Position numbers and translations under genes: made by a program. Source: a virus. From it: a DNA stretch of 23,265 nucleotides. The notes beneath the pieces are model-generated. The model had not been told where the DNA came from and did not search any database. It was given only the letters and a program-made list of their open reading frames with translations. Where the stretch lies: positions 1 to 23,265 of IMG/VR virus record IMGVR_UViG_3300035204_000589; one strand, written 5' to 3'. Below are positions 8,101 through 22,273 of this stretch, piece after piece (position 1 is the first letter of the stretch; each line of letters begins with the position of its first letter).

Positions 8101-8421
8101 GTGGGCATCTACGGGAACGTCTACAACTCTCTCGCGCGTGCAACAGGTAGCGACACGCTCTCCAGCCGCTACGCGGCACGCAACCTCATGTCGTCGCTGA
8201 TGGGGCCTTCGGTCGGCACGCTCGAAAGCGCGAGCAGGCTAGCGATCCAAGGGCGTCGTATGGAATTCTCGGAGAGCGACCTCAACACTTTGCGTCGGCT
8301 GCTCCCGTACAATCAAGTGCCGTATCTCCTGGGGATATTCGACAAGCTGGAAGAAGGCACCGCAGACGCACTCAACTTACCCAAGAAGCGCAAGCGTGGG
8401 CGCAGCAGGAAGGTTCTGTAA
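5143..8421 (+). CDS. Very large internal virion protein, T7 gp16-like position
   Basis: The product is 1092 residues. I chose GTG 5143 because GGAAGAGG lies directly upstream and it overlaps the previous gene by only 11 bases; an ATG at 5107 is possible. A long Gly/Ala-rich hydrophobic region at about residues 110-240 contains segments such as LAASGALGIAAAFGSAVL and ITAATFLGGLLGSGIG, consistent with membrane insertion during ejection. The rest is helical, with a second hydrophobic patch near residue 710 (MLGGVTINAIPDLGMLVL). T7 gp16 (1318 residues) is the largest ejection protein and carries an N-terminal lytic transglycosylase. I do not see that domain's catalytic pattern here, so cell-wall opening may be done by another protein. 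The C-terminus is strongly basic (KKRKRGRSRK). Its stop overlaps the fibre gene start by one base. Confidence 0.68.
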   Translation: MPSNRELRKAPFALNPAEPQQMQAQERPSFGDTASAAWRLENTMFAAYDMMREQVASRHDAPAPEGYDPFDGIRGTIFEEYPEALIDVDSPAEKTRRELKLMRELKDRETLAASGALGIAAAFGSAVLDPLILVPVGGQIKAVRGAAVAGKVAAAGNTARAGQLARIAATGSVPAELVSPLTAGIVTARAAIVGETAVESLLHASQETRTFGESALNITAATFLGGLLGSGIGKLSKKSREKALAQIEHDLVEIGGGTSEFDVPKLTQQDLVQPTDGSMSGAEIKLRRALGPIHAEKIFTAKGVQVMSAPYVRVMGRSPSINSKKTMMDLADPSGYVDTSGVQLRSSAESEVIQRVDGTLSQLLPEGDRLYIDYRLRMASEGGKAARAVKAGGRPRRAMIQAADKLTGQAKKEGVLEYHEFMELAGSASRSENSGIAEVDELGRIWDEKVYKPIWEELTTHKDFEGFLDPEVAKLDPAGGRRYLRRVYNREKMIANEGRFKEKVKLWLRGEIDDDEIDAILKRAGLEKATRGVEVEGVAPMARHTFTPEQSAAIEKALDLHAYNIFKHLTDSPLKRVSYSRETIGKSSPFKSRALTFPDEFVEEFLEQDIQVLGEQYLRTIAPDMAMYRRFKDVSLDERLSLISKEYAELRVGVSPKEAARLHKQELEDVKLISGVAMLLRGTYAVPPMHPTVTAARTIRGMNYLSMLGGVTINAIPDLGMLVLRNGFLRTFRVGFAPLVTHMKAAKLSKVELRKMGAAVELVLDSRSRIMADIGDEFVQNKTQKLVSNVSRNFSLINLQAQWNSGLKGISGMLEMTNAIEEILAEGTGKATAKGIDRLEFARLGPEMRASIREQLLKADGFKSDGPLKWSNTEAWDDPVAASEFSSAIRLLVDNTILTPGIASAPLELSTETGRTLLQFQRFQFGATNTILLSALQQSDLRAVQGITTMIALGSVVELIKNRLNDRPQPETMEDLVQAGIDRSGVVGIYGNVYNSLARATGSDTLSSRYAARNLMSSLMGPSVGTLESASRLAIQGRRMEFSESDLNTLRRLLPYNQVPYLLGIFDKLEEGTADALNLPKKRKRGRSRKVL

Positions 8422-9314
8422 TGACCATCTCATCCACAACCAAATCGGCACGTTACACAGGGGACGGCACAAGCTCGCCACTCTCGACTGTGTTCCGGTG
8501 CTTCGCATCATCCGAGATCGAGGTCTGGAAGCTCACTCGCGCAACAGGCGTGTGGGAGCAGTTGACCGAAGACACGGAGTACAGCGTCACGCTGACGGTG
8601 CCCGATGGCACGCAGGCTTCCGCAGTCGGCTCTGTTGTTCCGATTTCTCCAGGCACCAACTTCCCAGCATCGGTCGATTGGGAGATCCGCCGCGCGCTGC
8701 CGCTGACGCAGACGCTCGACCTCAACGAAGGGGACGCGCTTCCCGCGATCTCCGTCGAAGGCGCTTTCGATCGTCAGGCGATGCACGCGCACCAGCTCAA
8801 CAAGTGGGTGCTACTCGCAGAGGCATCTGGCGCGGCGCAGTCGGAGCTGAATGTCCGCGCCGTGGATTGGACAAAGACGTATGACTCGGTGCGGCTTGAG
8901 CTGTTCGGCGTATATCCAAGCACTGCGGCTCGCATCCGAGTGAAGATCGACGACAACTCCACCGGCACGCCCGTTGGGTCTGGGCTGTTCAGCTCATGGA
9001 TCACGTTGTTTGGGCATGATGCGTCCGTGAATGGCGAACGCACCTCGACATGGGCCACAGATACGGGAATTCTGGTCGGTGCGAGCCTTGTTGAAGGCGT
9101 GAATGGGAGCCTCACGATTCACAGCAGAGACGAGAAACTTTACGCAACGGGTCAGTACGTCTACACGGACTCTGTGGAATCTTCGGTCTGCGTGGCAACG
9201 ATGGGCGGCACGGCCACGGGCTCATACACCCATCACGGCTTTTATGTCGATGGAAGCGGCAGCGGCACCACAGTAACCGGGCTTGTCCGACTATGGGGAA
9301 TGCCCAAGGCATAA
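8421..9314 (+). CDS. Tail fibre protein with T7 gp17-type N-terminus
   Basis: The product is 297 residues. ATG 8421 overlaps the previous stop, with AGGAAGG upstream. Residues 1-135 match the T7 tail-fibre N-terminal domain pattern that docks on the tail: 'YTGDGTSSPLSTVFRCF', 'Y.VTL.VPDGTQ', 'IRRALPLTQTLDLNEGDALP' and then 'FDRQAMHAHQLN'. Residues 148-297 are a separate beta-rich domain ending in 'GLVRLWGM'. The protein is short for a fibre: there is no long triple-helical shaft, so the receptor-binding tip follows almost directly after the anchor. The C-terminal domain recurs in the secreted protein encoded at 9733-10593. It is expected to be the host-recognition protein, possibly with a further partner protein bound to it. 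Confidence 0.85.
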   Translation: MTISSTTKSARYTGDGTSSPLSTVFRCFASSEIEVWKLTRATGVWEQLTEDTEYSVTLTVPDGTQASAVGSVVPISPGTNFPASVDWEIRRALPLTQTLDLNEGDALPAISVEGAFDRQAMHAHQLNKWVLLAEASGAAQSELNVRAVDWTKTYDSVRLELFGVYPSTAARIRVKIDDNSTGTPVGSGLFSSWITLFGHDASVNGERTSTWATDTGILVGASLVEGVNGSLTIHSRDEKLYATGQYVYTDSVESSVCVATMGGTATGSYTHHGFYVDGSGSGTTVTGLVRLWGMPKA

Positions 9315-9325
9315 GGAGAGAGACA

Positions 9326-9730
9326 ATGCGAAACTTTATTGCGCTGGTGGCTTTGGGCTTGCTCATGGCCGCATCAAGTGTGCAGGCAGCGGATTGGTAT
9401 CAGGGGCCTGGCGAGACGGGGCGCGTCGTAACAACGCCGAGCCCAGGTCAGACGATCTACATTTCGACTGCCGGTGCTCCATCGTCGTTGGTGAGCGTGC
9501 GGCGCTGTCAACGCTGGACGATCACGGTGTTTGGCTCTGGCGCGAGCGTAATGCCGCAAGCGTGCTGGTCGAATGCTGATTGTGCAACGTCTGGTACGAA
9601 CGAGGACCTGATCGCCACTGCGCTCACGGGTGATACGACGAACAGGTTCATGTCTAGCATCGTTCCGTTCCAGTGGATTCGGCTGGATACGTCCAGCGTC
9701 GTGAACGTACAACTCGTATGTGGGTGGTAG
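9326..9730 (+). CDS. Small secreted protein of unknown function
   Basis: The product is 134 residues. ATG 9326 is preceded by a strong AAGGAGAG site at 9313-9320. Residues 1-21 form a clear Sec signal peptide (MRNFIALVALGLLMAASSVQA), with cleavage expected after VQA. The mature part is about 113 residues, beta-rich, with four cysteines that could form disulfides in the periplasm or outside the cell. It ends in 'WIRLDTSSVVNVQLVCGW', which resembles strands of small phage fibre or decoration domains. I do not recognise a family. It lies between the tail fibre and the fibre-like secreted protein, so a role at the cell surface or bound to the fibre is possible. A signal peptide is unusual for a virion protein assembled in the cytoplasm. 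Confidence 0.72.
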   Translation: MRNFIALVALGLLMAASSVQAADWYQGPGETGRVVTTPSPGQTIYISTAGAPSSLVSVRRCQRWTITVFGSGASVMPQACWSNADCATSGTNEDLIATALTGDTTNRFMSSIVPFQWIRLDTSSVVNVQLVCGW

Positions 9731-9732
9731 CC

Positions 9733-10593
9733 ATGAGATACCTTGCTCTTGCATCACTCGTTAGTTTGACCTTGGCGATGGCTGGTCCTGCAATTGCCGG
9801 GTCTACCGGCACAGTAATCGGCGGTGGTGGTGGTGGTGGCGATGTCGCGAACCCGATGACCTCGGACCTCGACGCAGGCAACAACGACATCACGAACGTG
9901 GGCGACGTATCGGCTGATTCGTTTACGAGCAGCGCGGACGATGGCTCGCGTGAGATGTCGCTGTCGGAGAACACTTCATACACATGCAGTGCGTCTACCG
10001 ACGAGTTCCGGCTTTACAACGAGGGCGACGTTCTCAAATACTGCGACGAAGGTGGTGAGTCGAATGTTGTGAGCCGCGTCCTGCTGGATACTGAGACAAC
10101 GACATCTGCTGTGAATGACATCACTGTTTCCTACGCAGACTGGCAGACAGAATACAGCGTGCTGGAACTGGAACTCATCGGCGTATGGTGTACTACCGAC
10201 GGCGAGGGGATGCGCGTCCGGTACGACAATAACGGCGTGGAAACAGCAGGCGATGCATACGTTGGCAAGACGTTTCATGATCCCGGCGTAGCCACCGAGA
10301 CCCTCGTAGAAGGGGCCGCACTGCGTACCGACACCACAGAGGAGATCGACGCAGCCGCAGCCTCTGGCGTTACCGGAACCGTCGTAGTGCGCTCACTTGG
10401 TACGGCTACCAATTCTGCCTTCAGGATGGTCGCCGACTGGGCCTATCTTGATTCTGTCGACGAGGCTATTACTGCCCAGCGCCTTTACGTCTCTGGCGAC
10501 GGCATGACATCGTTCGATGGCTTCTATCTGGATTGCACTGCCTCTAGCACGATCAACGGAACGGCGCGGATCTGGGGTTTGCAGACGTGGTAA
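9733..10593 (+). CDS. Secreted fibre-like protein sharing the tail fibre's C-terminal domain
   Basis: The product is 286 residues. The ATG at 9733 follows the previous stop by two bases; an ATG at 9718 is the alternative. Residues 1-22 are a typical Sec signal peptide (MRYLALASLVSLTLAMAGPA then IAG). A seven-glycine linker follows, then a 'NPMTSDLDAGNNDITNVGDV' segment that is common in phage fibre shafts. Residues 134-286 align by eye with residues 148-297 of the tail fibre at 8421-9314. Shared features are DW...Y followed by LEL.GV, 'GVTGTVVVRS' against 'GVNGSLTIHS', 'YLDSV' against 'YTDSV', 'GFYLD' against 'GFYVD', and the ends 'ARIWGL' against 'VRLWGM'. It looks like a fibre tip exported from the cell. 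It could be a decoy, a receptor blocker or an adhesin. A start downstream of the signal peptide, giving a cytoplasmic virion protein, is the alternative. Confidence 0.72.
   Translation: MRYLALASLVSLTLAMAGPAIAGSTGTVIGGGGGGGDVANPMTSDLDAGNNDITNVGDVSADSFTSSADDGSREMSLSENTSYTCSASTDEFRLYNEGDVLKYCDEGGESNVVSRVLLDTETTTSAVNDITVSYADWQTEYSVLELELIGVWCTTDGEGMRVRYDNNGVETAGDAYVGKTFHDPGVATETLVEGAALRTDTTEEIDAAAASGVTGTVVVRSLGTATNSAFRMVADWAYLDSVDEAITAQRLYVSGDGMTSFDGFYLDCTASSTINGTARIWGLQTW
9823..9840 (+). repeat. GGT triplet repeat coding a polyglycine linker
   Basis: Five GGT codons and one GGC in a row, next to another GGC, encode seven glycines directly after the signal peptide region of the fibre-like secreted protein. 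Changes in copy number would keep the frame and only alter linker length. Confidence 0.85.
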
Positions 10594-12266
10594 AGCGGCT
10601 CATAGCCGTCGCGTTACTGCTGTTCGCGCTACCCGCCTCAGCGGAAATTATCGTTGTCCATATCGGAGACGATGGTACGCGGGGGCGCATCTCTGCGTAT
10701 CGGGTCGCTGGAATAGACGTAGTCGCTGACTCGGGCGAGCACCTCACCACCACGAACCTCGATGCGATGGCTTCCAGCGGAATCCGATTCGATCATTTCC
10801 GATCCGAACCTCGCTGCTCGCAGACCCGCGCTGCATTGTTCACGGGCGGGAGTCCGCGCAGGCCGTACAACCTGACATCGCACAACACAGGACCGAATAA
10901 CGATACCAGCGTAACGATTGACCATGACCACCCATACAACCTGGTCCCGCAACTCAAGGCCGCAGGTTACAGCGTGGGTTTGGTCGGGAAGTTCCATTTA
11001 ACTAGCGAAGTTGACCTCGACAACAATCCGCACGACTACTTGATGGAGATGGGATTCGACTGGTTCGATGCGATCATCCCAGGGAACCCAAGCCAAGACC
11101 TCGGGCAAACGCATCAGCACACGTCGAACAATTGCTTCGGGCATAACCACTGGTGGGGCGTCGGCGAGGGCGGTGCGAAAACCCTCTACGGCGACGGCAG
11201 TGGCGGCAGTAGCGGCTACACGAACCTCGTCATCAAGGACTCGGTGGTCGCGAAGATCGGTACGATCGACTCGGCGTCGGAGAAGTGGGTGCTATTCGTC
11301 GGCTGGAGCGCGCCACATGGTCCGTGGGATGCAGGGTTGGCTGCTAACACATGCGACTACGACGACGATGGAACGCCGGAAGCGGCTCGCAATGACCGGC
11401 CCCCCGGAAGCGCAGCAACCAACGACATTGCCGTGTATAACGACGCTTTCGAGAAGATGGACGAATACATTGGCGACGTGAACGCGACTCTCGATCTCGC
11501 TGCTGGTGGCGATGCGGACACATCGGTCTTCTTCTTCGACAACGGTGCGCCGAGCGCAGGAGCAACGACGGAGTGCTACAACAGCAGGGGGATGAAGGGC
11601 ACGCCCTACCCATGCGGCACCGAGCCTGGGCTGTTGGTTCAGGGCGGCGCGAGCCCGCAGAACGGCATCGTCACGTCGCTGCTGACGGTGCCCGACATCT
11701 CGGCGACGTTGGTTGATCTCGCTGGCGGCACCTATCGCGGGCGTCCTGACGGCATCAGTTTCGCCGACTGCATCGACGGAACGACTGCACCGGGTAGCTG
11801 CCCAGAGCTGCGCGACGTGGCGTGCTCCACCCAGTGGGCTCCGATGGGTGGCAACACGGACGGCACAATCGCTCGCCAACCACTCGCTGCCGACGCAGCG
11901 GGGGAGTGGGACGACTGGAGCCCCGGCTGCGTCACTCGCAGTTGCGGAAGCAACGAGTACCTGCTTGCACGCGCTCACGATGTGGACGGCACGGACCCGA
12001 CGTTGTTCTGCGAGCACCTATACGAACGCACGTCTACCAGCGATTACCTCTCAACCTCGCCACTACTGGAGACGGACGGCGAGGACACGGGAATCCCGGT
12101 TACGTGTACCAGCGGCGCAGACAACCTGAACGATGGGAAGATCGCGCTCAGTGCGGCCCCGTCGAGCGATGCGGAGTGCGCCCTAAAGCTCTTGCAGCCC
12201 GCGCTTGACGGGATGAGCCACAACAACGGAGCGCACACGCCGCTGCTGCGTGGAGGCAGTTTCTGA
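10587..12266 (+). CDS. Secreted type I sulfatase (alkaline-phosphatase fold)
   Basis: The product is 559 residues, full family length. GTG 10587 overlaps the end of the previous gene. Residues 1-19 form a Sec signal peptide ending LPASA. Family motifs occur in order. They are the metal-binding Asp pair in 'VVHIGDDG' (residues 28-29), the active-site signature 'CSQTRAALFTG' with Cys77 as the residue normally oxidised to formylglycine, 'VGKFHL' (Lys135, His137), 'SAPHGPW' (His244), 'FFFDNG' (Asp318, Asn319) and Lys337 in 'RGMKGTPY', followed by 'PDISATLVDLAG'. Such enzymes hydrolyse sulfate esters, often on polysaccharides. Activity would need a host maturation enzyme, since none is in the window. 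The signature has Gln in place of the usual Pro/Ala at the third position. The substrate is unknown. Sulfated capsule, exopolysaccharide or lipopolysaccharide of the host is an inference. A sulfatase in a phage late operon is unusual. Confidence 0.87.
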   Translation: MVKRLIAVALLLFALPASAEIIVVHIGDDGTRGRISAYRVAGIDVVADSGEHLTTTNLDAMASSGIRFDHFRSEPRCSQTRAALFTGGSPRRPYNLTSHNTGPNNDTSVTIDHDHPYNLVPQLKAAGYSVGLVGKFHLTSEVDLDNNPHDYLMEMGFDWFDAIIPGNPSQDLGQTHQHTSNNCFGHNHWWGVGEGGAKTLYGDGSGGSSGYTNLVIKDSVVAKIGTIDSASEKWVLFVGWSAPHGPWDAGLAANTCDYDDDGTPEAARNDRPPGSAATNDIAVYNDAFEKMDEYIGDVNATLDLAAGGDADTSVFFFDNGAPSAGATTECYNSRGMKGTPYPCGTEPGLLVQGGASPQNGIVTSLLTVPDISATLVDLAGGTYRGRPDGISFADCIDGTTAPGSCPELRDVACSTQWAPMGGNTDGTIARQPLAADAAGEWDDWSPGCVTRSCGSNEYLLARAHDVDGTDPTLFCEHLYERTSTSDYLSTSPLLETDGEDTGIPVTCTSGADNLNDGKIALSAAPSSDAECALKLLQPALDGMSHNNGAHTPLLRGGSF

Positions 12267-12562: not shown

Positions 12563-12856
12563 GTGGCTGGCGGCGACGAGCACAAATTCCTTGGCTGGAT
12601 GGGCGACGCATGGCCAGGGCTCGCGGCGTTCGTGGCTTTCTGCGTGGGGCGAGGTGATATGAATCGGCGGGTCGCGCACAACGAAAAGGAAGTGTCTCGC
12701 GTCGAAGGGGATCTCCACAAGTCGCGCGACCACGATGCTGAGTTTCGTCGCCAGACACGGGCAAAGCTCGACGAGATCGAGGGCTCTGTTTCGGAGATCA
12801 AGGCCGATGTCGCAGTGCTGCTCGATCGCGTGCCACAGCGCAATGATCCAGCCTGA
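12563..12856 (+). CDS. Membrane-anchored coiled-coil protein
   Basis: The product is 97 residues. The GTG at 12563 follows the holin stop by two bases but has no good ribosome-binding site; ATG 12599 is an alternative start. There is one hydrophobic segment (about residues 17-30, WPGLAAFVAFCVG). A long charged helix with heptad-like spacing follows (EKEVSRVEGDLHKSRD, AKLDEIEGSVSEIKADVAVL). A membrane helix plus a coiled coil downstream of a holin resembles phage inner-membrane spanin subunits or the small holin-associated proteins found in many phages. Topology and function are inferred. The stop overlaps the next start as TGATG. Confidence 0.55.
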   Translation: MAGGDEHKFLGWMGDAWPGLAAFVAFCVGRGDMNRRVAHNEKEVSRVEGDLHKSRDHDAEFRRQTRAKLDEIEGSVSEIKADVAVLLDRVPQRNDPA

Positions 12857-13230
12857 TGCCAGAGAAGGTGGTCTACTGGGCACCGCCCGACGACTTGCGG
12901 GTCGAGGTCCGGTTCTACGTCACCGATTACGACGCGAACCCGATGAGATGGAACGCGATCACGCCGTTCGATGTAGGCGAGACTCCGCTACCCCCGGCGT
13001 GCTTGGACCCGGTGCCTCCACTATTCTGCGAGACTCACGGCACGTGGAACTTCGGAACCATCGTGGTGCCCGAAGAACCGTATGCGTTTCACGCGGTACG
13101 CGAGGATCAACATACCGGCTGGACGAGCCTGCAAAGCAACGTGGTACTGGTGCCTGAGCCTGCAACAACGCTTGCGCTGCTGTTCGGTTGCCTGCTCGCT
13201 TACGGTTTCAAACAAAGGAGATCTACATGA
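12856..13230 (+). CDS. Protein with a PEP-CTERM-like C-terminal sorting signal
   Basis: The product is 124 residues. ATG 12856 overlaps the previous stop. Residues 1-95 look like a single beta-sandwich-type domain with two cysteines and no enzyme motif. The C-terminus reads 'VPEPATTLALLFGCLLAYGF' followed by KQRRST: a Val-Pro-Glu-Pro motif at residues 99-102, a hydrophobic helix, then a basic tail. This is the layout of the PEP-CTERM signal that exosortase recognises in bacteria with complex extracellular polymers. The protein has no N-terminal signal peptide that I can see, which PEP-CTERM proteins normally need. The tail may therefore act only as a membrane anchor, or export may occur by another route. 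It sits between membrane-protein genes of the lysis region. Confidence 0.62.
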   Translation: MPEKVVYWAPPDDLRVEVRFYVTDYDANPMRWNAITPFDVGETPLPPACLDPVPPLFCETHGTWNFGTIVVPEEPYAFHAVREDQHTGWTSLQSNVVLVPEPATTLALLFGCLLAYGFKQRRST

Positions 13231-18325: not shown

Positions 18326-18537
18326 CAGTACCTCCATTCGTCTGAGTAGTAGTCTTCGATCCGCTCTTCGATCTCTCGAAGGTCGGGGTGAACGCACGGC
18401 GCGTCGTCGGGGAGCCCGTCCCATTCGGGGTCGACCATGTCGCCGCCTTCGATCTCGTACACGTCTGGGTAGTAGCCGCCGCACTTGCAGCAAAGCACCC
18501 ACTCGAAGTCGTCTCCTGCGATTGTGACGTTCGTCAT
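18325..18537 (-). CDS. Small acidic protein with a cysteine cluster
   Basis: The product is 70 residues. ATG 18537 has GAGGAGA upstream. It contains 'VLCCKCGGYYPDVYEIE' (Cys16, 17 and 19), and Cys48 and His50 later, which could form a small zinc site. The C-terminus is a strongly acidic helix (REIEERIEDYYSDEW). The high acidity is a common feature of phage proteins that mimic DNA or bind host proteins, but nothing specific is recognised. It is near the start of the leftward operon. Confidence 0.55.
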   Translation of the reverse strand: MTNVTIAGDDFEWVLCCKCGGYYPDVYEIEGGDMVDPEWDGLPDDAPCVHPDLREIEERIEDYYSDEWRY

Positions 18538-18656
18538 GTGGTCTCCTCGGAGTTCAGCCGGGGGTGCCTACGCAAAGCCAGCACCCGCTGTCGCCGCGTT
18601 TCCCCCCGATGCGTTCCTTCGTAAACGCACGAGCACGGCGAACCCCCGGCCTTCAC
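18534..18656 (-). CDS. Possible short basic ORF at the start of the leftward operon
   Basis: The product is 40 residues. GTG 18656 has no clear ribosome-binding site, but the stop overlaps the next ATG as ATGA. It is Arg-rich, with 'EGTHRGETRRQRVLALRRHP' in the middle and two Cys near the N-terminus. It may be real or may be an untranslated leader. I leave it as a weak candidate. Confidence 0.28.
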   Translation of the reverse strand: MKAGGSPCSCVYEGTHRGETRRQRVLALRRHPRLNSEETT

Positions 18657-18662
18657 CCCCGT

Positions 18663-18749
18663 TTAGCGCGTGTGGAAGTCGATGACGGCAGCGGCCAAGT
18701 AGCCGAACGCGAAGCCGCCGAGGAATCGGGTGTAGAGGTAGAAGATCAT
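18663..18749 (-). CDS. 28-residue membrane micro-protein at the head of the leftward operon
   Basis: The product is 28 residues: MIFYLYTRFLGGFAFGYLAA, then AVIDFHTR. ATG 18749 is preceded by AAGGAGC at the right distance. It forms one hydrophobic helix with Gly-rich faces. It is the first gene downstream of the divergent control region, so it would be made early. Small one-helix phage proteins of this kind often affect host membrane processes, but no function can be assigned here. Confidence 0.48.
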   Translation of the reverse strand: MIFYLYTRFLGGFAFGYLAAAVIDFHTR

Positions 18750-18878
18750 GTCGCTGCTCCTTCGTCGGTCGTTGCCGACAGGGGCAGAATACAGGCAGCG
18801 CCTCACACCGCAAGCCTTCTTAGCAAAATAATTCTAGCCGCCCTTGCGTTACACCTCGGGTTGCGTCAGGCTTGCCGC
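18750..18878. promoter_or_regulatory. Divergent control region between the leftward and rightward early operons
   Basis: This 129-base gap is the only clear divergent gap in the window. It lies between the micro-protein gene (-) and the Cro-like gene (+). A weak leftward promoter candidate reads TTGCGG (18808-18813 complement), a 16-base spacer and TATTCT (18786-18791 complement). An AT-rich patch (18821-18836) stands out in GC-rich DNA and could be an operator or promoter for the rightward operon. TTGCGT occurs twice as a direct repeat at 18844 and 18861. The exact promoters cannot be proved by eye. Confidence 0.5.
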
Positions 18879-19844: not shown

Positions 19845-20838
19845 GCCCAACGAGCGCGCGGCCTACTGGCTCGACCAACTGCGCGGAATGCCCGAAGCCG
19901 ACCGGAAGGAATTCTGCGAAGCCATCCCAGACCTCTCGAAATTCGAGGACGATCTCATGGAGGCGGGATGCCCGCTCGACGAGATCGACGAACTGCTCGG
20001 AGAGTTCCAGACCTACCGCAACATGGTCGATCCAGATCCGAGTGCAGCTCTCGCTATGGCACTCATCGAAGCGATCGACACACCTGGAGAGACTTCCGAA
20101 GTCTCGGCCCTCGACGACATCAAGCACGAACTCAAGCCGAAGTTCCCGACCAGCGTCGGACAAGTGAACGCCCTGACCGAAGGCGGTGGCTATGGGCTCA
20201 CCACGGTGGGCGGTTCGGCCAAGGTGGGCAAGACGCTCTTCGCTTTCGGGACTGCGGTTGAGGCGTGTAAGGCCGGGTGGCGCGTGGTCTACCTCAACGC
20301 TGAACTCGACAAGAGCGAGGCGGCGATTGCGTTGGCGCGTTACTGCGGCGGCATGATTCCGCCCTTCGTGAAAAACAACTTCACGTTGGTCAACCCCGAG
20401 ATCGGGTTCCGCCCGCACGATGCCGTTGCTCGCGCTCACGAAGCATTGCAGTTCTACGACAACCGGATGCTCATCGTGATGGACTCGATCAATGCACTTG
20501 CGGAGTTCACACTCGATGGGACGAAGGGGCGCATGGACTATTGGGCCGCGAATGCGTTGTGGCGAAACTTCGCCGTGCGCGCGACCCGCAAGAGCTTCGG
20601 TAAGATCGCCTTCCTGTGTGTGTCCGAGTTAAACAAGGACGGCGGCATCAAGGGCGGCTCGCTCGAATACAAAGCCGACCTCGTTGTTCGTATCAGCGCA
20701 GACACAAGCAACACCGAGTACGTGGACATCGACGTTCGTCGTTCACGCTCAACCGCATCGGGCGAGTTGGGAAAGTTCCGACGAGTCTGGAACAGGGGTC
20801 GCTTCGACGCGATACCCGGAAGTTGGAGGAATAACTAG
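19834..20838 (+). CDS. RecA/RadA/DnaB-like ATPase
   Basis: The product is 334 residues. ATG 19834 overlaps the previous gene by 11 bases, with GCGGAGG upstream. Walker A is 'GGSAKVGKT' (residues 126-134) and Walker B 'MLIVMDS' (212-218). 'VVYLNAELDKSEAAIALAR' is typical of the RadA/DnaB-type core ('.E.....') that follows strand 2. 'FLCVSELNKDGGIKGGSLEY' (260-279) resembles the K-rich motif of RadA/Sms. The N-terminal 110 residues are helical with no recognised domain. It is probably a replicative helicase-like or recombination ATPase acting with the initiator-like protein upstream. A DNA primase domain is not seen. Confidence 0.75.
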   Translation: MDCKPNERAAYWLDQLRGMPEADRKEFCEAIPDLSKFEDDLMEAGCPLDEIDELLGEFQTYRNMVDPDPSAALAMALIEAIDTPGETSEVSALDDIKHELKPKFPTSVGQVNALTEGGGYGLTTVGGSAKVGKTLFAFGTAVEACKAGWRVVYLNAELDKSEAAIALARYCGGMIPPFVKNNFTLVNPEIGFRPHDAVARAHEALQFYDNRMLIVMDSINALAEFTLDGTKGRMDYWAANALWRNFAVRATRKSFGKIAFLCVSELNKDGGIKGGSLEYKADLVVRISADTSNTEYVDIDVRRSRSTASGELGKFRRVWNRGRFDAIPGSWRNN

Positions 20839-20839
20839 C

Positions 20840-21127
20840 ATGAAGTTCAAGCCAGCAGCAGGATGCTTTCTCATTCGCAAAGACGAGAAGGAAGGGCAGA
20901 CGCAGTCGGGGATCATCATCCCCGAAGCAGCACAGGACAAGGTGAGCACGGGCACGGTCGTCGCGGTGGGCGAAGGCGAGATGTTGCAGAGCGGCATGGC
21001 CAACCCGCCGCTGCTCAAGGTGGGCGACCGGGTGTGGTTCAACAAGTACGGCGGAATCGAGGTCACGCTGGGCGACGAGGAGTTGTCGGTCATCAAGGGC
21101 GGCGACTTGGTGGGGTATGCGCGCTGA
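20840..21127 (+). CDS. groES: GroES-like co-chaperonin
   Basis: The product is 95 residues. ATG 20840 has GGAGGA at 20825-20830. It matches the Cpn10 fold through 'FLIRKDEKEGQTQSGIIIPE' (including the mobile loop SGIIIPEAA), 'GTVVAVGEGE', then 'VGDRVWFNKYGGIEVTLG' and the end 'VIKGGDLVGYAR'. Length is the same as bacterial GroES (97). Cpn10 caps the GroEL chamber, and phages such as T4 (gp31) encode their own version to fold their capsid protein with host GroEL. No GroEL gene is in the window. Here it is in the early/replication operon and not next to capsid genes. Overlap with the next gene is TGATG. Confidence 0.92.
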   Translation: MKFKPAAGCFLIRKDEKEGQTQSGIIIPEAAQDKVSTGTVVAVGEGEMLQSGMANPPLLKVGDRVWFNKYGGIEVTLGDEELSVIKGGDLVGYAR

Positions 21128-21516
21128 TGCCTGATCGCCCGTGGAAGCGAATGGAACGATGGGTGGCCGGTGCAATCGGTGGCCGTAGGCGTGGCGCGCA
21201 TGTGGGGGACGGCTCCTCTGGTAGCGGCAAGTCGGACGTAATCCTCGACGGCTTCTCAATCGAGGTGAAGCTGCTCAAGGCTCCGTCCATCGCGAACTAC
21301 TACTCGGCGCTCAAACAGGCGATGGACGCGCGAGAGGACAAGGCCGAGATCCCCGTCGCCTTCGTCGCCAAGGGCGGAAGCCCATACGGCAACGCGATGG
21401 GCGTGATGCGACTGAGTGACTTCGAGGTCACGCGGTTCAACCGGAACGGTGCCGACCCGATTGTGCTGATGCTCGCGGAAGATCTCTGCGCTCTGCTGCG
21501 GAGTGACGATGGCTGA
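21127..21516 (+). CDS. Small PD-(D/E)XK nuclease, possible Holliday-junction-resolvase type
   Basis: The product is 129 residues. ATG 21127 overlaps the groES stop. The core motif is 'GKSDVILDGFSIEVKLLK': Asp37, then Glu46-Val-Lys48, the D...ExK catalytic pattern. The N-terminus 'WKRMERWVAGAIGGRRRGAH' is basic, as in small phage endonucleases with a 'ALGGRR' start. Residues 58-100 contain the helix-strand part 'YYSALKQAMDA' and 'IPVAFVAKGG'. The length suits a resolvase or VRR-like endonuclease that cuts branched or damaged DNA. The substrate cannot be told from sequence. A run GSSGSGKS mimics a P-loop by chance. Confidence 0.72.
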   Translation: MPDRPWKRMERWVAGAIGGRRRGAHVGDGSSGSGKSDVILDGFSIEVKLLKAPSIANYYSALKQAMDAREDKAEIPVAFVAKGGSPYGNAMGVMRLSDFEVTRFNRNGADPIVLMLAEDLCALLRSDDG

Positions 21517-22273
21517 CCGCCGCCTGGTGTGCTGGTTCTCATGCGGTGCGACGAGCGCGGTTGCTGCGAAGCTCGCTCTCGAAGAGGCGCGCGGCATGGA
21601 GACGCATGTCTGCTACTGCGACACGGGCTCGGAGCACCCTAGTAACGAGAAGTTCCTGCGAGACGTATCGGCGTGGCTCGACCACCCGATCACCATTCTG
21701 AAGTCCGAGAGGTTTAGCGACATCTGGGACGTGTTCAAGAAGACGCGCTGGCTGGTTGGTCCCAAAGGCGCTCGCTGCACGGTCGAACTCAAGAAGGAAC
21801 TGCGCGTGGCATTCTCGCGGCCCGACGACCTGCATGTGTTCGGCTACGACGCAAGCGAGCGGAAGCGGGTAGCGCGGTTTCGGGAGAACAACTTCGAGCT
21901 TGACTTCGTGGCCCCGCTGCTTGAGCGCAGGATCACTAAGGCCGACTGCCTTCGCAGGATTGAAGACGCGGGGATCGAGTTACCGGAGATGTATCGCCTC
22001 GGCTACCCGAACAACAACTGCATCGGATGCGTGAAGGGGCAGCAGGGCTACTGGAACAAGATCCGTGTCGATTTCCCGGCGGTGTTCGAGCGCATGGCGA
22101 AGGTCGAGCGCGAACTCGATGTGGCGATCAACAAGAGCTACGCGGGCGACAAGAAGCGCAAGCGCGTGTTCCTAGACGAACTCGACCCCGACGCTGGCCG
22201 TGGCCTGCCAATGGGGAACTTCTCATGCGGTGCGATGGGCTGCGCCGAACAACTGGAGCTGCTTGATGGCTAA
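21509..22273 (+). CDS. PAPS-reductase-like PP-loop enzyme with cysteine pairs
   Basis: The product is 254 residues. ATG 21509 is the better start (GGAG 6 bases upstream); GTG 21503 is the alternative. The PP-loop 'SCGATSAV' is at residues 11-18, followed by 'VCYCDTGSEHPSNEKFL', the usual strand and DTG...E..N pattern of the PAPS reductase/DndC group. Cysteines Cys90 (ARCTVELKK), Cys171/Cys174 (NNCIGCVKG), Cys240 and Cys245 could bind an iron-sulfur cluster. The family covers sulfate assimilation (reduction of PAPS) and also DndC, which puts sulfur into DNA. The order after a nuclease and groES does not decide between them. DNA or tRNA sulfur modification and sulfur metabolism are both possible. 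Confidence 0.8.
   Translation: MADRRLVCWFSCGATSAVAAKLALEEARGMETHVCYCDTGSEHPSNEKFLRDVSAWLDHPITILKSERFSDIWDVFKKTRWLVGPKGARCTVELKKELRVAFSRPDDLHVFGYDASERKRVARFRENNFELDFVAPLLERRITKADCLRRIEDAGIELPEMYRLGYPNNNCIGCVKGQQGYWNKIRVDFPAVFERMAKVERELDVAINKSYAGDKKRKRVFLDELDPDAGRGLPMGNFSCGAMGCAEQLELLDG

Follow-up and report, generated by a model that had tools for sequence, protein, structure and literature searches.

A phage gene behind the tail fibre encodes a predicted exported relative of the fibre's own tip domain

The phage sequence analysed here (IMG/VR record IMGVR_UViG_3300035204_000589, positions 1 to 23,265; this whole stretch of 23,265 nucleotides is called the window) encodes, shortly behind its tail fibre P0001, a protein (P0002) in which a relative of the fibre's tip domain stands behind a predicted Sec signal peptide. 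That the phage encodes a putatively exported relative of its fibre tip, as a sequence-only reading had proposed, is borne out by the homology of the two tips, by leaders that are also present in three related phages, by an excess of cysteines and by tight gene packing. The relatives are metagenomic phages (G001, G002 and G003) with a tail-tube protein 40-51% identical to that of the window. The features of the locus are as follows.

8421..9314, + strand: tail fibre P0001, 297 aa, from a tail-protein match and homology to fibre A of G001
8421..8819, + strand: virion-anchor domain of the fibre, P0001 residues 1-133, from the ends of PHROG and tblastn matches and alignment
8838..9311, + strand: tip domain of the fibre, P0001 residues 140-297, from homology to the P0002 C-terminus and hhalign
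9314..9320, + strand: AGGAGAG, Shine-Dalgarno-like, 5' of the first exported gene, by direct reading
9326..9730, + strand: P0003, small predicted exported protein, 134 aa, signal peptide 1-21, 4 Cys
9733..10593, + strand: P0002, predicted exported fibre-like protein, 286 aa, ATG at 9733, stop at 10591-10593
9733..9798, + strand: predicted Sec signal peptide of P0002, residues 1-22, AIA^GS, from reading, detector and shuffle control
9820..9840, + strand: polyglycine linker of P0002, G30-G36, by direct reading
9850..10068, + strand: shaft-like stretch of P0002 (NPMTSDLDAGNNDITN...) and Cys-pair module (C85, C104)
10105..10590, + strand: tip domain of P0002, residues 125-286, from homology and the AF2 model
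10587..12266, + strand: predicted exported sulfatase, 559 aa, signal peptide 1-19, GTG start, PF00884
12336..12560, + strand: holin-like gene 3' of the cassette, phrog_297 holin, E = 0.0022

The cassette thus listed follows the tail fibre and precedes the lysis genes. All three genes in the interval from the fibre to the holin-like gene carry signal peptides, and they are tightly packed, with a 2-bp gap between P0003 and P0002 followed by a 7-bp overlap between P0002 and the sulfatase, whose GTG start lies inside the 3' end of P0002.

The C-terminal domain shared by P0001 and P0002, located correctly in the sequence-only reading by eye, was recovered by pairwise alignment and by BLASTP (P0001 102-294 versus P0002 96-283, 201 columns, 25% identity, E = 2e-14). 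A tblastn search across the entire record matched just the P0001 and P0002 sites (E = 4e-13), and the domains alone reached a Smith-Waterman score of 150, versus a mean of 37.1 (SD 7.0, maximum 85) for 1000 shuffles. The common domain spans approximately residues 140-297 of P0001 and 125-286 of P0002. Its earlier description as a duplicated copy holds as far as a homologous tip in a predicted exported protein is concerned, but the copy is not recent, since the two tips are 27% identical, below the 41% between the fibre tips of the window and G001; nor does the duplication extend beyond the tip, the rest of P0002 belonging to an exported protein that has other C-termini in the relatives. P0002 also matched fibre A of G001 (BLASTP, E = 7.6e-8). 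Its tip contains two cysteines, C153 and C268, and the fibre tip has none at the equivalent places. Because their identity is so low, the two tips may bind different ligands.

At their N-termini the two proteins are of different kinds. Residues 1-130 of P0001 match the phrog_13893 tail protein (E = 5.7e-11) as well as the fibres of Pelagibacter and epsilon15-like phages, and nearly all PHROG and tblastn matches of P0001 stop around residues 120-149, the alignment with fibre A of G001 being full-length (44.7% identity). P0002 had no match to the anchor PHROG and begins with a signal peptide instead of a virion-anchor domain. From its C-terminal place after the anchor and its lectin-like predicted fold, the tip would be the receptor-binding part of the fibre. 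AlphaFold gave a poor model of full P0002 from two sequences (pLDDT 43.6), and a domain model of residues 113-286 (AF2, 41 sequences, pLDDT 72, pTM 0.70) was used in its place; this rise in confidence supports the homology weakly, since the two models are unequal both in length and in depth. The domain model had 60 matches in BFVD at E<=1e-3, including named tail-fibre proteins, and aligned with the galectin-9 N-CRD (Z 8.8, rmsd 3.2, 122 aligned) and, tied with it, with a GH32 C-terminal sandwich (Z 9.1, 3.8 A over 126); Foldseek against the PDB returned nothing at E<=0.001, whether for the full-length or the domain model. As modelled, the tip may be a jelly roll resembling those of lectins.

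By hhalign profile-profile comparison only, the window tips are remote members of a marine '...YGI' tip family, with a global score of 23.5 versus maxima of 10.1 among 40 column shuffles and 6.4 among 22 other virion segments; direct HMMER comparison of this family with the two window tips gave 1.4 and 3.1 bits, within the range of shuffles. Direct searches for P0002 relatives found none in viral_contigs (also with a two-tip profile), none by tblastn in 50,697 phage records and none in genome_contigs, and the fibre tip alone found no relative in viral_contigs. The marine relatives carry tandem tip paralogues without signal peptides in the post-fibre slot, as do HTVC034P and marine contigs at the equivalent slot, where these leaderless proteins are presumably virion parts. 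A similar layout is found in HTVC010P-type pelagiphages (phrog_14820) and their host-recognition island, with tandem '...YGI' tips in the same slot that are remotely homologous to those of the window; unlike P0002, none of the 50 ORFs of this family has a signal peptide, P0002 being the only one with a leader among 55 tip ORFs. Lectin and C1q-like genes are described for variable regions of HTVC010P-type pelagiphages in two reports (PMC3909814, PMC10504331).

The signal peptide and the polyglycine stretch pointed out in the sequence-only reading are both present. Judged by reading and by our heuristic detector, the P0002 N-terminus, MRYLALASLVSLTLAMAGPAIA^GS, is a textbook Sec signal peptide with n-, h- and c-regions and an AxA cleavage site; 7 of 500 shuffles of the leader residues passed the detector. 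The cleavage region AIA^GS contains no Cys and therefore, by reading, no lipobox, and the predicted mature protein has 264 aa. In the G001 counterpart, TGIVIGGGGGG follows the signal peptide, and the shaft-like and Cys-pair region of P0002 recurs in the exported proteins of G003 (BLASTP, 35% over 85 aa, E = 3.8e-5) and G002 (G002 versus G003, E = 3.6e-5). Across phages, the detector called 11 of 12 cassette proteins versus none of 20 virion proteins, and its one miss, the G003 sulfatase, has a leader that is clear by eye. Cysteines are 12 times more frequent in the mature cassette proteins (80 of 3702 residues) than in virion proteins (24 of 13657), as expected outside the cytoplasm (Mann-Whitney on Cys per protein, P = 3e-6, with proteins that are related to each other). 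Their number is even in all eight small and modular cassette proteins; the sulfatases, with 13, 13 and 7, likewise have an even count once the catalytic Cys is set aside. Two leader-bearing proteins are poor in cysteine and form exceptions, one of 768 aa in the phage vir555 (3 Cys) and one of 298 aa in G003 (1 Cys). Export of P0002 is thus well supported at the level of prediction, and its function we infer.

A post-fibre cassette is found in all three relatives, consisting of an exported protein of ~133 aa, the homologue of P0003, and an exported modular protein, the counterpart of P0002, which has a signal peptide in each of them. The P0003 homologues of all three (33-46% identity) have signal peptides too; a P0003 profile matched four of six records, with no homologue in L003 or vir555, although both have leader-bearing proteins in the slot, and a search of phage records found no relative. 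One match in genome_contigs, by reading a bacterial solute-binding protein, resembled the signal peptide only and was rejected. An exported sulfatase is encoded by two of the three relatives (three of the four phages with the window), G001 having none. The fibre of G002 is a tipless anchor of 166 aa, and the next gene encodes a 541-aa exported protein containing DUF3383 (E = 1.9e-10), which we take to be a phage structural domain. More distant by its virion genes, vir555 also has leader-bearing proteins after its fibre, one of which weakly resembles chondroitinase-B (E = 0.034, below the cut-off).

Export of post-fibre proteins as a general rule in these podoviruses was rejected on a survey of 110 loci, three of them (L001, L002 and the window) belonging to the window itself. 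Upstream of the fibre 2 of 567 genes were called by the detector, versus 20 of 312 at positions +1 to +6 downstream, and with a looser detector score runs of leader genes straight after the fibre were confined to the window and vir555 (L005). L088 has leader-bearing genes from position +4, and several pelagic loci have a single small one. The greedy gene caller overlooks some genes, such as the L003 array and the P0003 homologue of G003, which were both found by reading.

Like other PF00884 sulfatases, the window sulfatase combines a family match (E = 2.8e-22) with residues kept in three sulfatase homologues (D28, D29, C77, R81, K135, H137, H244, D318, N319 and K337), presumably those of the active site; it differs from other members in being phage-encoded, in lying within an exported cassette and in its CSQTR motif. 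This motif departs from the maturation motif CxPxR, which reads CTPTR in G002 and CSPSR in G003, and activation of the window enzyme is uncertain because of the Q.

The P0002 counterparts of the relatives carry other C-terminal domains, and because of this the tip, found in the exported protein of one of the four phages, looks acquired; exporting the tip would then not be the reason why the cassette is kept. In a maximum-likelihood tree the P0002 tip was nested within the fibre tips (UFBoot 79 and 86), yet AU tests did not reject its placement outside all fibre tips (p 0.36), as sister to the fibre of the window (p 0.41) or outside the fibres of the window and G001 (p 0.26). The direction of transfer from fibre to exported protein is therefore drawn from parsimony over the four phages rather than from the tree.

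We tentatively propose, as a reading that we rate somewhat short of an even chance, that P0002 is a Sec-exported, fibre-like adhesin for the receptor glycan of the fibre, which together with the sulfatase masks or alters receptors and reduces re-adsorption. P0002 would leave the cytoplasm late in infection and fold with disulfides outside it; whether still in the periplasm or once released at lysis, its tip would bind the host surface glycan that the fibre binds too, and the sulfatase would alter a sulfated glycan. Receptors on the infected cell and on debris would be masked or altered, so that progeny are likely not wasted. We infer that the gene is expressed late, that P0002 is in fact exported and cleaved, that it binds glycan and shares its ligand with the fibre, and that receptors are masked. 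Superinfection exclusion, a decoy role and surface attachment of the secreted sulfatase, as suggested in the sequence-only reading, are each compatible with the anatomy; in a diderm host, a Sec substrate would be held in the periplasm up to lysis, and this speaks against earlier blocking of receptors on the outer surface. Points against masking are the low identity of the two tips, the single occurrence of the tip among the four phages, the lack of a sulfatase in G001 and the Q in the motif of the window enzyme.

The closest known systems are Llp of T5, an exported receptor blocker whose gene lies downstream of pb5, and Cor, which resemble P0002 as exported phage proteins with a disulfide encoded beside a receptor-binding gene (PMC9586334). 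Both are small lipoproteins without kinship to the receptor-binding protein, whereas P0002 has no lipobox, a 264-aa mature form, homology to the fibre tip and a sulfatase as neighbour. Searches of an open-access library listed no paper that describes an exported copy of a fibre tip.

Alternatively, the exported proteins could bind and desulfate glycans of a capsule or matrix, the tip serving as a carbohydrate-binding module, so that progeny diffuse or the infected host gains nutrients. We regard this as unlikely, though deserving serious weight: it fits the lectin-like fold, the sulfatases of three phages and the leader-bearing post-fibre proteins of vir555, of which the one chondroitinase match is below its cut-off, but it leaves the kinship of the binding domain to the fibre's own tip unexplained.

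It is rather improbable that the adhesins are virion parts, either joining the particle once exported, at lysis or later, or keeping an uncleaved leader, and acting as second receptor-binding proteins. Podoviruses with several fibres or spikes encode such proteins, with a tip and no virion-anchor domain, after the anchor-bearing fibre, and P0002 is like them in these respects, except that a Sec leader replaces the short attachment peptide. The leaderless tip paralogues of HTVC034P and the marine contigs and the G002 arrangement speak for this reading; against it, tailed phages assemble in the cytoplasm, the cysteine excess and the co-exported enzyme point to a place outside it, and P0002 has no anchor domain of its own. 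A further reading to which we give little credence is that receptor-binding parts are made in two compartments, with a virion anchor fibre and Sec-exported disulfide adhesins that at lysis join the anchors or coat free receptors; the tipless anchor fibre of G002 with its exported protein carrying a virion-type domain would be its extreme case.

As doubtful is the view that these are cargo (moron) genes modifying the host surface, for host benefit or in lysogeny. The likeness to lom- and bor-type genes, which are exported genes near the tail fibre, favours it; against it, the PF00589 integrase was absent from all four records, possibly incomplete, with 14 of 14 control genomes positive, and the cassette is fitted closely into the interval from the fibre to the lysis genes. 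Least probable is that a tip gained by recombination beside the fibre gene is now drifting without function: recombination between neighbouring genes is easy and just one of four counterparts has the tip, but even at 27% identity the domain is still open, aligned end to end and equipped with C153 and C268.

Progeny phages are lost to debris and to cells that already carry an infection. A Sec-exported relative of the fibre tip, beside an enzyme that may alter receptors, would be a solution by 'competition by self' and would differ from Llp and other known exported blockers, which have no relation to the receptor-binding protein. As the conserved cassette shows, predicted exported proteins can occupy the variable slot behind podovirus tail fibres, which is commonly taken to encode virion parts; this matters for the annotation of receptor-binding proteins.

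The left part of the window, a viral record of 23,265 bases, encodes a tail-tube B protein (phrog_376, E 5e-122; ∼35% identity to that of HTVC010P-type Pelagibacter phages), internal virion proteins and a tail fibre. The fibre anchor domain matches tail-fibre PHROGs as well as podovirus fibres or tailspikes (Pelagibacter, epsilon15-like and other phages), and PHROG and sequence searches with the fibre returned no match to its C-terminal domain, or tip. Three tightly packed genes follow on its 3' side:

8421-9314: tail fibre, anchor (residues 1-133) plus tip
9326-9730: P0003, small exported-type protein, first of the three
9733-10593: P0002, fibre-like protein, second
10587-12266: sulfatase (PF00884, E 2.8e-22), third; a holin-like gene directly after
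12856-13230: protein without signal peptide, with a PEP-CTERM-like ending unusual for a phage protein (PF07589, 19.8 bits versus a cut-off of 20.7)
20838-21127 and 21503-22273, right half: GroES-like and PAPS-reductase-like proteins, by reading

The sequence-only reading had proposed that the fibre tip recurs in P0002 behind a Sec signal peptide and a polyglycine linker, and both parts hold. BLASTP pairs the two C-terminal domains over 201 columns (E 2e-14, 25% identity), with an alignment score of 150 versus a maximum of 85 in 1000 shuffles, and tblastn of the whole record recovered the match (E 4e-13) and no third place with the tip. The P0002 N-terminus, MRYLALASLVSLTLAMAGPAIA^GSTGTVIGGGGGGGD, combines a Sec leader of textbook type, with cleavage site AIA, and the polyglycine linker; P0003 and the sulfatase likewise carry textbook leaders.

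Direct searches with P0002 (viral_contigs, 50,697 phage records by tblastn, genome_contigs) found no relative, nor did a two-tip profile or the fibre tip alone match viral_contigs. A tail-tube profile built from the window and locus L003 yielded 10 loci, three of them close and extending past the fibre (L166, L168 and L169; 51, 42 and 40% tail-tube identity to the window). All three of these metagenomic phages have a cassette of leader-bearing genes after the fibre, as called by a greedy gene caller on records that may be fragments, so that the cassette is known from four phages:

G001 (L166), closest relative: two fibres in tandem, of 299 and 325 aa, each anchor plus tip (L178 1480-3384, minus strand); two leader-bearing products, a P0003 homologue (131 aa) and a 219-aa protein in which TGIVIGGGGGG follows the leader; no sulfatase
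G002 (L168): tipless, anchor-only fibre (18330-18830, 166 aa), directly followed by three leader-bearing products: a P0003 homologue (134 aa), a protein of 541 aa and a sulfatase
G003 (L169): tip-bearing fibre of 336 aa; the leader-bearing products are a P0003 homologue (133 aa), proteins of 298 aa (phrog_8198, E 1.2e-8) and 366 aa, and a sulfatase

A P0003-family profile hit these four of six records examined, and neither L003's record nor the more distant vir555; runs of leader-bearing proteins also follow the fibre there (L003 12586-13757; L005 9084-14724). A Cys-pair module recurs in P0002 and in its counterparts in G002 and G003 (BLASTP E 3.8e-5 for P0002 with G003, 3.6e-5 for G002 with G003); the G001 counterpart resembles P0002 solely in its leader and polyglycine layout. 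The C-termini of these proteins differ among the four phages, and the fibre tip is found only on P0002; the tip profile located both G001 fibres, the G003 fibre, and no place in G002, L003's record or vir555. P0002 and the window fibre are 27% identical in the tip (window fibre versus first G001 fibre, 41%), and the P0002 tip is nested among fibre tips in a tree, without significance. The simplest history would be a common ancestor with an exported modular protein, the fibre tip being gained in the window lineage; neutral capture of the tip is a rival reading, as is a cassette of cargo genes. At its maturation motif the window sulfatase reads CSQTR versus canonical CxPxR (CTPTR in G002, CSPSR in G003).

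Leaders and cysteine content both support the predicted export. An in-house leader heuristic, other than SignalP, was positive for 11/12 cassette proteins versus 0/20 virion proteins, and for 2/567 genes upstream of the fibre (110 loci with a fibre anchor); between 0 and 45 of 500 same-residue N-terminus shuffles passed. Its one miss, the G003 sulfatase (MIARLLICVLLLIAAPAVAVVDQ), is leader-like by eye. Independently of the leader, mature cassette proteins contain 2.16 Cys per 100 residues (80/3702) versus 0.18 (24/13657) in virion proteins (per-protein P 3e-6, which overstates independence since cassette proteins are mutually related), and 21/917 versus 7/3114 in the window alone; exceptions are the G003 298-aa protein (1 Cys) and a 768-aa leader-bearing vir555 protein (3 Cys). 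Cys numbers are even in 8/8 small and modular proteins and odd (even plus the catalytic Cys) in 3/3 sulfatases, as would be expected from disulfides. One rival reading has the exported adhesin assembled into the virion afterwards; the leader-bearing G002 protein at L168 19287-20909 holds DUF3383 (PF11863, E 1.9e-10), which we take to be a phage structural domain.

Marine relatives commonly encode, behind the fibre, members of a tip family ending in YGI, arranged as up to five tandem copies (three to five paralogues in L144, L145, L111, L159, L101, L137, L123 and L150). This family aligns end to end with the two-tip window profile (score 23.5, P 1.8e-4; maxima of 10.1 in 40 column shuffles and 6.4 in 22 segments of other virion proteins). 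Among 55 distinct tip ORFs in 188 loci, the detector found a signal peptide on P0002 alone. AlphaFold, given an alignment that included the YGI family, predicted a jelly roll of moderate confidence (pLDDT 72.0, pTM 0.70). The model has 60 BFVD matches (E<=1e-3), of which the first is annotated as a T7-type tail-fibre protein and others as side-tail-fibre or uncharacterised. PDB matches were weak and tied: a GH32 C-terminal sandwich (Z 9.1, 3.8 Å, 126 aligned) and the galectin-9 N-CRD (Z 8.8, 3.2 Å, 122 aligned). A lectin-like sandwich is thus likely, and sugar binding only suggested.

By its sequence, P0002 is an exported-type adhesin bearing a relative of the fibre tip; its gene is grouped with those of a small exported-type protein and a sulfatase, and the group lies just upstream of lysis genes. 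The available text of earlier work offers a precedent in T5 Llp, an exported blocker whose gene likewise adjoins that of the receptor-binding protein (PMC9586334), and describes lectin and C1q-like genes within variable regions for host recognition in HTVC010P-type phages (PMC3909814, PMC10504331). In that of a phage survey of retroelement-diversified proteins, signal peptides occur on bacterial versions and are missing from phage ones (PMC6199706), which makes the P0002 leader more notable. A remaining rival is that the cassette processes matrix. Under the adhesin reading, the cassette would be expressed late and P0002, working in the periplasm or getting out at lysis, would bind through its tip the same glycan as the fibre; it may thereby mask receptors, while the sulfatase would alter that same glycan.
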